Of a stretch of DNA of 64,000 bases, positions 61,640-63,632 are shown piece after piece. This stretch comes from Candidatus Saccharimonadota bacterium (GTDB lineage: Bacteria; Patescibacteriota; Saccharimonadia; Saccharimonadales; UBA4665), in NCBI GenBank assembly GCA_029288365.1, contig JARIHI010000008.1, positions 1-64,000 on the forward strand, in the 5' to 3' direction. How positions within the stretch are numbered: position 1 is the first letter of the stretch; every line of letters begins with the position of its first letter. Made by a program: the position numbers and the translations under genes. The notes below the pieces were generated by a model. It made no database searches and was not told the DNA's origin. It saw only the letters and a program-made list of their open reading frames with translations.

Positions 61640-61670
61640 AAAGGCCTTATGCGTTACGCATAAGGCCTTT
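61640..61670 (+). terminator. Rho-independent terminator after khpA
   Basis: Perfect 14-bp stem: AAAGGCCTTATGCG (61640-61653) and CGCATAAGGCCTTT (61657-61670), with GTGGTTTTTT after it. Confidence 0.85.
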
Positions 61671-61702
61671 GTGGTTTTTTGTATATCCGCTGTCGGTAAC
61701 TT

Positions 61703-61736
61703 AAAAAACCTTGCGTATTTTTGCGCAAGGTTTTTT
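61703..61736. terminator. Bidirectional terminator
   Basis: 13-bp stem AAAAAACCTTGCG (61703-61715) with CGCAAGGTTTTTT (61724-61736). A-rich on one side and T-rich on the other, so it can end transcription both from khpA and from the minus-strand gene at 61738-61959. Confidence 0.88.
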
Positions 61737-61737
61737 G

Positions 61738-61959
61738 CTAGCTCCTCGTTCTACTTATTCGGTGAGGCGCACGCATGGCTTGCATGGTTTGCCTAACTAT
61801 ACCGAGATCAATTTCTCCTGGCTTTCGCTGAGATTCTTGTGATCCACGCCTATCTATTACGGTAAACGTTTGTGGTGGCAAGAAATGCTCTTCTGGCGGT
61901 TGTGGTGGCTGGTCAGCCTCAAGGTGATCCGGAGAGCTAGGAGGGCCTAATTCTCCCAT
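61738..61959 (-). CDS. Small proline-rich protein of unknown function
   Basis: 73 residues. Supported by GGGAGGA about nine bases before the ATG on the minus strand and by a terminator right after its stop. Rich in Pro, Glu and Gln in the first half (GPPSSPDHLEADQPPQPPEEHFLPP), then basic (RISRTRS end). No domain recognised. Confidence 0.5.
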   Translation of the reverse strand: MGELGPPSSPDHLEADQPPQPPEEHFLPPQTFTVIDRRGSQESQRKPGEIDLGIVRQTMQAMRAPHRISRTRS

Positions 61960-62296
61960 ATATTAATTTCCTCCCAAAGATTAATTATAACATAAAATTA
62001 CCCCTCCTGTGTAATATTCTTTACAGACAAGCCAGACGCTCAAGTAAATTTAGATTAAAGAGCAGCGATGAGTAAAAACAGATATTGATTTATAATAATA
62101 ATTATGTTAAAATAGGATAGTTTTGTTGAGGTTAAATAAATCTCCAAAGCAATTTAACAAGCAGACACATTGCATACGAAATGAGGAATAAGCACGGGAC
62201 TAGGTTCTATGTTTTTCCCTCATTTTGTGTGATATACGAAAACACACGCTAGCTAATGCTAGGGCATAAGTGGCCACTGAGGAGAGAGGAATTACC
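61960..62296. other. AT-rich intergenic spacer before the GC-rich gene
   Basis: 337 bases without a gene. Contains possible -10 boxes (TATAAT at 62091-62096, TAAAAT at 62108-62113), an imperfect AAATGAGG/CCTCATTT repeat and a GTGTG/CACAC hairpin near 62227-62247. Its 3' end carries the strong ribosome site of the next gene. I see no coding frame or known RNA. Confidence 0.5.
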
Positions 62297-62776
62297 ATGA
62301 CGCAGGACACGCTCATCGTCGCGGAGACGGAGATCGTCAACCCGCACGGCAAGGTCGTGCTGAAGCTGGACTACGACGGCGACGCGCTCGATCAGGAAGC
62401 CCTCCAGGCCATCCTCGACGACGTCTCGCCGGCGAGCCTCAAGCACTTCCTCTGCGCCGTCGCGCACGAGTGCGACGAGTGCGACGAGTTCACCACCGAG
62501 CCCCTGTCGCTGACGTTCTCACTCGGCGAGAACAAGGTGACCCTCGAGGTCACGCTCACCATGAACCGCAAGGTCCCGCAGGAGCTCCTGCACCTCATCG
62601 TCGCGGAGCTCGTCTTCCCCGACATCGTCAGGACCGCGATCGCGAAGAAGCGCGTCGACGTCGAGAACGAGACCGGCATCTCGGCCTCCAAGGCCAACTC
62701 GCCGCGCAGCGTGAGCGTCATCGAGGTGATCGCGATGGGCGGCCCCATCGGTGGCATGATGGGTTTCCGCCTCTAG
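62297..62776 (+). CDS. GC-rich foreign-looking gene, protein of unknown function
   Basis: 159 residues from ATG 62297, backed by GAGGAGAGAGGA upstream; GTG 62270 gives a longer, less likely form. About two thirds G+C (40 of 60 bases in 62341-62400), almost every codon ends in G or C, unlike the rest of the window. Acidic N-terminal domain (ETEIVNPHGKVVLKLDYDGD), HECDECDEFTTEPLSL with two cysteines, and C-terminal VSVIEVIAMGGPIGGMMGFRL. No catalytic motif recognised. Lies inside the normally compact rpsP-khpA-trmD block. Horizontal gain or an assembly join are both possible. Confidence 0.7.
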   Translation: MTQDTLIVAETEIVNPHGKVVLKLDYDGDALDQEALQAILDDVSPASLKHFLCAVAHECDECDEFTTEPLSLTFSLGENKVTLEVTLTMNRKVPQELLHLIVAELVFPDIVRTAIAKKRVDVENETGISASKANSPRSVSVIEVIAMGGPIGGMMGFRL

Positions 62777-62809
62777 GAAACGCAGTCAGTACTGACGGCG
62801 ATTTCCTAG
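62773..62809 (+). terminator. Long hairpin at the end of the GC-rich gene
   Basis: CTAGGAAA (62773-62780) with TTTCCTAG (62802-62809), CGC with GCG inside, and a central palindrome GTCAGTACTGAC (62785-62796). The stop codon TAG is within the left arm. No T tract follows. It could be a terminator or a cassette boundary. Confidence 0.6.
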
Positions 62810-62981
62810 TCTCACACGGGAACGGCAGGCAGACATGAATACATGTTTGAGATCCCACCGTTTCTGGTGTGTTTTCCTTTCGTGTATTGATGTCTGCTTG
62901 TTGTTTCCGCTCCAGAATTGTGTAATTCTGCTGACGAGCCCTAAAAGGGCGAAAGCGAAACTGATAAACTTATATGTAGCT

Positions 62982-63632
62982 ATGAAAATCCAGATTATTA
63001 CATTATTTCCTGAAATGTTTGACGGTGTGCTTGGTAGTTCTATGCTTTGGAAAGCCCAAAAAGAAGGGTTTGTAGAATACAAGTATATAAACTTGCGTGA
63101 TTTTGGGCTAGGGCCACGTAAACAGGTAGATGACACACCGTATGGCGGAGGTGACGGTATGCTGCTGCGTATTGAGCCACTAGTTGCGGCAATAGAAAAG
63201 GCTAAAGAAAACGATCCGTCGGCTACAGTATTTTTACCAACTCCTCGCGGTAAACTGTATAAGCAATCTGACGCTAAACGACTAGCAGAAATTAAGAGAG
63301 GGATGATTATTATTTGTCCCCGGTATGAAGGTTATGACGAACGTATAACTCGGTGGGTGGACGAACAGTTCTGTATCGGAAACTACGTGCTTACAGGGGG
63401 CGAAATTCCGACCATGGTCCTTATCGACAGTGTAGTCCGTCTACTGCCAGGAGTATTAGGTGGTGAAACTAGTACAGAAATAGAATCATTTCAAAAAGAT
63501 GACACAACCATTGAATTTCCTCAGTACACGCGCCCTGAGAAATTTAGAGACCTAGAAGTGCCAAAAGTACTACTCAGTGGCCACCATGCTGAAATAGCTA
63601 AATGGCGCCATCGGATGTCAAATAATTCATAG
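62982..63632 (+). CDS. trmD: tRNA (guanine-37-N1) methyltransferase TrmD
   Basis: 216 residues from ATG 62982 (MKIQIITLFPEMFDGVLGSS, the standard TrmD start); the longer frame from 62835 adds a hydrophobic stretch with no counterpart in the family. SPOUT knot motifs: DDTPYGGGDGMLLRIEP, FLPTPRGKLYKQ, IIICPRYEGYDERI, EQFCIGNYVLTGGEIP. Makes m1G37 and prevents frameshifting. Shorter than E. coli (about 255) at the C-terminus, ending PKVLLSGHHAEIAKWRHRMS. Usually co-transcribed with rpsP; here separated from it by about 1.9 kb. Confidence 0.97.
   Translation: MKIQIITLFPEMFDGVLGSSMLWKAQKEGFVEYKYINLRDFGLGPRKQVDDTPYGGGDGMLLRIEPLVAAIEKAKENDPSATVFLPTPRGKLYKQSDAKRLAEIKRGMIIICPRYEGYDERITRWVDEQFCIGNYVLTGGEIPTMVLIDSVVRLLPGVLGGETSTEIESFQKDDTTIEFPQYTRPEKFRDLEVPKVLLSGHHAEIAKWRHRMSNNS

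Follow-up and report, generated by a model that had tools for sequence, protein, structure and literature searches.

Hammerhead-ended gene cassettes in Patescibacteria and their proposed self-trimmed, end-closed mRNAs

The role of bacterial hammerhead ribozymes has been described as an open question (PMC6155905). The closest precedent for the arrangement that we describe here comes from prophages, in which single genes of inconstant identity are flanked by hammerheads and the RNA is trimmed to gene-length pieces (Perreault et al. 2011, PMC3088659). Our starting point is the window, a stretch of 64,000 nt from a Candidatus Saccharimonadota bacterium (contig JARIHI010000008.1, positions 1 to 64,000), in which a hammerhead likewise adjoins a single gene. 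By contrast with the prophage examples, the units described here are chromosomal in the loci that we read, carry one hammerhead each, always on the 3' side, and have their own promoter, a conserved leader hairpin, a leader-trailer closing helix and a folded cargo. A prophage location was not found: the window unit is flanked by rpsP-khpA and trmD, and other copies lie between host genes.

Three other known systems invite comparison. Integron gene cassettes are also compact single-gene units with diverse orphan cargo, arranged in arrays or alone, and with a 3' hairpin. They are usually promoterless, however, whereas the copies read here have a promoter and leader before the cargo, together with a hammerhead and leader-trailer pairing; integron attC sites have R and L boxes (RYYYAAC, GTTRRRY), and inspection by eye showed no attC-like conserved ends in our units, where the conserved end resembles UGACAAGC and is entirely different in other classes. 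Plant retrozymes are DNA-encoded RNAs with a type III hammerhead (PMC6155905), but have a hammerhead in both flanking repeats and a non-coding body, whereas the present units are bacterial and coding, with one ribozyme per isolated unit. Obelisks are folded, coding RNAs of about 1 kb (PMC11922315), but are RNA-only replicons encoding Oblin, whereas our units are chromosomal DNA with a promoter and encode unrelated proteins, which for the most part also lack relationship among themselves. Our literature search, which covered open-access published papers, returned no paper joining hammerheads with Saccharibacteria, Patescibacteria or TM7. The hammerhead-ended gene cassette is thus apparently undescribed, its novelty being provisional because of the scope of that search.

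A GC-rich gene followed by a hammerhead between khpA and trmD

A preliminary description of the window had pointed to a GC-rich gene in the rpsP-khpA-trmD block and read it as a recent transfer from a high-GC donor. The gene is real: a frame on the + strand (62297-62776) that encodes 159 aa, preceded by the Shine-Dalgarno sequence that had been claimed for it (AGGAGAGAGG, 62280-62289), lies between khpA on its 5' side and trmD (62982-63632, +; identified by PF01746) on its 3' side. Its GC content is 0.65, against about 0.44 in neighbouring genes, and 0.64/0.36/0.97 by codon position; third-position GC (GC3) is 0.35-0.43 in rpsP, khpA, trmD, rnc and nusB, and the 0.97 of the window gene is extreme even compared with the other cargoes described below. 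The promoter and leader in front of it are AT-rich (GC 0.35). The encoded protein has no recognised homologue in the collections searched: there was no match in Pfam, PHROGs, NCBIfam, PADLOC or PDB, and no relative among related genomes, genome and viral contigs, or phages, while a search of plasmids gave a single, insignificant hit. The homology search for donor taxa that had been recommended thus found none. An AlphaFold2 model built from the single sequence (pLDDT 53) was not good enough to allow a fold search. BLAST gave no support to a likeness, noticed by eye, between this protein and the cargo of another locus (L042).

The proposed comparison with relatives bore out the placement of the cassette in a conserved block. 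The trmD protein was located in 24 of 25 other genomes, and neither the gene nor the ribozyme is present at any of these 24 loci. At every relative's locus that was readable far enough, khpA stands ahead of trmD, in most cases with rpsP on its other side; the khpA-trmD gap is 34-857 nt in relatives and 1444 nt here. For the cassettes in general, no empty site was seen at base resolution; G001, from the same family as the window genome, and G171/G173, which share the genus of G001, were too diverged at the locus compared. Between khpA and the cassette there are two further features: a pair of perfect tandem hairpins after khpA (61640-61736), each with a T-rich stretch behind it, which have only weak, sub-threshold Rfam scores and are probably tandem terminators, and a 73-aa antisense frame (61738-61959, -), uncertain as a real gene, that matched nothing at the relatives' 24 trmD loci.

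The preliminary description missed a type III hammerhead ribozyme (62905-62960, +) directly 3' of the cargo gene region and on the same strand. It was found by an Rfam scan at a permissive threshold (RF00008, E 1e-5 in 1.6 kb and 4e-4 in 64 kb), and its 36.2 bits fall below the gathering score of 48.5, which no genome among the first 60 scanned reached; RF00008 was nonetheless matched repeatedly, below that curated score, in the window genome and its relatives. We therefore examined the matches further by alignment. Like RF00008, the window ribozyme has the catalytic core (CUGANGA ... GAAA) and three helices with stem III open to the flanks; it differs, besides the lower score, in being coupled to an upstream hairpin and a leader. 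Over 23 aligned copies the core columns are invariant, compensatory double changes occur at 15 of 17 pairs, and 93.3% of cells are paired, against only 30-48% for slid structures. The NUH cleavage triplet is CUC at 62910-62912, its U invariant in the alignment, and on sequence grounds the ribozyme should cut the mRNA after C62912. trmD, a host gene that lies outside the cassette, starts 22 nt past the ribozyme end, with no terminator predicted between the two in our scan.

Upstream of the gene, a pattern scan identified a sigma-70-type promoter (62085-62113, +) with a -35 element TTGATT at 62085-62090, a 17-nt spacer and a -10 element TAAAAT at 62108-62113, which predicts transcription from about 62120; promoters occupy the matching relative position in other copies. 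Folding of the predicted mature RNA (62120-62912, alone and without constraints) gives a structure in which both RNA ends are paired and which includes a 5' leader hairpin (62120-62150, +) that begins at the predicted first nucleotide, 62120 itself lying at its base. This hairpin has an outer stem GUUUUG/CAAAGC, a UU bulge and an inner stem GAG/CUC, and about 26 other copies form it as well, with some of the pairs changed; outer-stem pairing is 0.96 within and 0.78 between copies, figures that are supportive only, the leaders having been hand-picked. A second leader hairpin follows (62173-62231, +; arms 62173-62194 and 62210-62231), with an equivalent at the matching place in many copies. At the other end, the palindromic hairpin claimed by the preliminary description is present directly after the stop codon (62776-62806, +), and is followed by a long 3' hairpin (62817-62909, +; 27-nt arms), the right arm of which can pair either locally or with the 5' leader. 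Indeed, in the predicted ensemble UAACAAGCAGACA at 62155-62167 (+) pairs with UGUCUGCUUGUUG at 62891-62903 (+) with a probability of about 0.90, forming an end-closing helix. The inverted repeat that had been noted around the gene (62232-62247 against 62867-62887) is real, but is only part of this longer relation. The clean core of the latter pairs AACAAGCAGACA (62156-62167) with TGTCTGCTTGTT (62891-62902), at 12 of 12 positions. The most convincing reading of the repeat is that it marks both ends of a single RNA and not those of a transposon. The whole region is more stable than its shuffles (z -7.4, 20 shuffles).

A recurring unit with unrelated cargoes

The unit recurs: among 125 distinct copies read from the order, we find a promoter, a 5' hairpin, a strongly folded GC-rich gene, a long 3' hairpin and a hammerhead. 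An ORF on the same strand as the ribozyme stops a median of 107 nt upstream of it, and strong folding of the 125 nt that precede the ribozyme (z below -2 against shuffles) is seen in 107 of the 125 copies. Many leaders carry UGACAAGCAGACA or a variant, whose complement forms the last nucleotides before the ribozyme. An exact complement of at least 12 nt between leader and pre-ribozyme sequence occurs in 23 of 114 copies, where cross-copy pairing gives an expectation of 1.3, a conservative control because copies share the motif; by a gapped score the complementarity has a p of about 1e-9. Variants change on both sides with complementarity kept, and other classes of the phylum have GCACCAACACATCC, TAGCGTGTGGTGA or ATAGTGTGTGATGT instead (13-14 nt), unrelated sequences that are exactly complementary at the same place. 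Many copies have no exact complement at the threshold that we set, so that end closure is perhaps not a feature of every copy. Two copies from one genus have almost the same leader, trailer and ribozyme, although their cargoes share only about 53% amino acid identity; judged from this pair, the cassette is most constrained at its RNA ends.

A covariance model built from the 23 hammerheads detects 8 copies in the window genome. Of 198 genomes from the order, 56 have at least one hit and the richest has 27; of 380 genomes drawn from the phylum, 42 are positive, the two draws overlapping; and of 150 genomes from a control phylum (that of a Paracoccus MAG), none is. The 23 sequences used to build the model necessarily match it, but most of the hits are to other sequences. 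Matches of a looser DNA pattern outside the Saccharibacteria had no hammerhead by the model and were set aside as chance. Several single copies are unusual. The viral contig IMGVR_UViG_3300027816_000524 (L132 6566-6620, -) has a hammerhead scoring 62.7 bits by the same model and encodes, by eye, a GroEL-like protein, HNH-like genes and structural proteins. One copy in the window genome (L031 2618-2672, -; G000:C4:32617-32671) has no ORF between leader region and ribozyme; its body resembles a structured RNA, and a tRNA gene is nearby. At L043, two units converge, and the hammerheads at their ends (2742-2796, +, and 2826-2882, -) face each other tail to tail across about 30 nt.

The cargoes are mostly unrelated orphans, with only about 10 related pairs among 115 proteins. 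Pfam matches a minority of them, as Band 7/flotillin, glycosyltransferase, DUF2807, TelA, GH113, HIT, NUDIX, ThiF, DUF350 and DUF4419 proteins, and one cargo matches the Thoeris inhibitor Tad4; no recombinase was found among the annotated cargo. Units occur singly or in tandem, the next promoter in an array following soon after the ribozyme, and copies within one genome can have near-identical 3' ends. A distant patescibacterium (G330:C16, L200 4610-7842) has five hammerhead-ended units spaced 570-1000 nt apart. This array has a somewhat different hammerhead and lies some kilobases before hrcA-grpE-dnaK-dnaJ-like genes, with no recombinase noticed by eye in its neighbourhood. The gap between dprA and topA holds units with different cargo in the window genome, G062 (two units), G038 and G055, with similarity to the dprA side of the locus in G013 as well; across several families (L030, L106, L022, L114, L067) this gap resembles a cassette hotspot. 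Two genomes of one genus, G130 and G186, likewise have different cargo at a common locus. At a further locus (L041, G041:C10), a TelA-type gene and, by eye, a TerD-type gene flank one hammerhead, as if a tellurite-resistance operon had been split into units.

GC-richness recurs among the cargoes. ORF GC exceeds that of the downstream flank in 105 of 119 copies, and cargo GC3 exceeds that of the neighbouring gene in 94 of 104 copies, with which it correlates (r 0.47), although the ORFs were picked mechanically and a few, such as that of C3 in the window genome, are in the wrong frame, which blurs these figures. Compared with synonymous shuffles of themselves, cargo coding sequences show excess folding (mean z -1.31 for the first 300 nt and -1.33 for the last; n=84, p about 1e-11), against z -0.38 for the first 330 nt of downstream host ORFs. 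Dinucleotide shuffles give -1.64 for cargo and -0.67 for host ORFs (p 9e-5), with GC-rich host ORFs coming near the cargo at -1.20. The excess in the window gene itself is weak (-1.4 and -0.3). Folding of the cargo is probably selected, with a moderate effect. Because cargo is more folded than synonymous shuffles, at least part of its GC-richness looks like a property at the RNA level.

Origin and proposed function of the cassettes

We propose that these units are exchangeable cassettes of a phylum-wide family that make self-trimmed, end-closed mRNAs, a reading that we hold to be the probable one, if with some reserve. Transcription would begin at the cassette's own promoter near 62120; the first 31 nt would form a hairpin, followed by the gene and the long 3' hairpin. 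The type III hammerhead would then form and cleave after C62912, so that the mRNA would end in a 2',3'-cyclic phosphate and the trmD message downstream would be released. Pairing of 62155-62167 with 62891-62903, beside the cut, would zip the ends of the mRNA together, with a strongly folded body between them. Most likely, the arrangement would serve to give accessory genes a sealed, nuclease-resistant, insulated mRNA, and the cassettes would be exchanged between genomes.

Recent acquisition of the gene from a high-GC source, for example an actinobacterial host, with the ribozyme and hairpins incidental, would account for the step in GC3 from 0.35-0.43 to 0.97, for the C-ending codons of the window gene and for its lack of a homologue in relatives. 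As a general explanation it is not supported, since eight units with different GC-rich cargoes occur in this one genome and random high-GC donors would not give cargo GC3 that tracks the local genome; the AT-rich promoter and leader, the folding of cargo at the synonymous level and the failure to find a donor also argue against it, and we consider it quite unlikely. A foreign origin of the window cargo alone, given how extreme its GC3 is, may still apply. The same GC step could come from a chimeric or misjoined contig, but a unit with a matching leader and trailer of its own is present eight times here and in dozens of independent genomes, and some units share one contig, so that an assembly error is scarcely credible. 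The units could alternatively be mobile DNA elements in which the 3' hairpin serves as a recombination site, as in integron cassettes, and the hammerhead is a passenger. The arrays, the mostly unrelated orphan cargo, the hotspots with different cargo and the near-identical 3' ends within one genome are what such elements would give. Each unit looked at, however, has its own promoter and leader; the right arm of the hairpin has its conserved partner in the 5' leader, which makes sense for an RNA; the end sequences differ between taxa with complementarity kept; and the annotated cargo includes no recombinase. This explanation is unlikely, though not negligible.

An alternative possibility is that the RNA itself is the travelling form, circular, exported or reverse-transcribed in the manner of retrozymes or Obelisks. 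Its translation might even take place in the host cell, and the GC-ending, host-like codons would then be accounted for. A type III hammerhead, a closed, folded RNA of about 0.8 kb and a GC-rich structured coding region are all consistent with this, and cultivated Saccharibacteria are epibionts of Actinobacteria (PMC10633639). On the other hand, isolated units have one ribozyme each, and the promoter lies outside the RNA and would be lost on retrotransposition. The RtcB ligase is encoded in only 8 of 198 genomes and is absent from the window genome and most carriers, so we rejected circularisation by the cell's own RtcB and do not favour an RNA circle made in this cell. Overall, we regard a travelling RNA as distinctly improbable. 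To return to cassettes with self-trimmed, end-closed mRNAs, a broader version of this proposal, which we consider speculative and rather doubtful, is that Patescibacteria have a general RNA-level cassette system, in which promoter, leader, trailer and hammerhead would make, from whatever gene is inserted, a message that is self-processed, end-closed and densely folded, and that might survive the cell or be exported from it and then be read by the host bacterium.

A GC-rich island can thus reflect the design of an RNA, rather than only foreign DNA. The family provides many natural, covarying hammerheads in a fixed place, at the 3' end of a single-gene transcript and with leader pairing beside the cut, so that self-made, sealed mRNA ends become a concrete and directly testable function for bacterial hammerheads. 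The cassette system is apparently unreported and belongs to a phylum of tiny epibiotic bacteria; if our proposal is true, it would be a ready-made bacterial route to sealed, long-lived messages.
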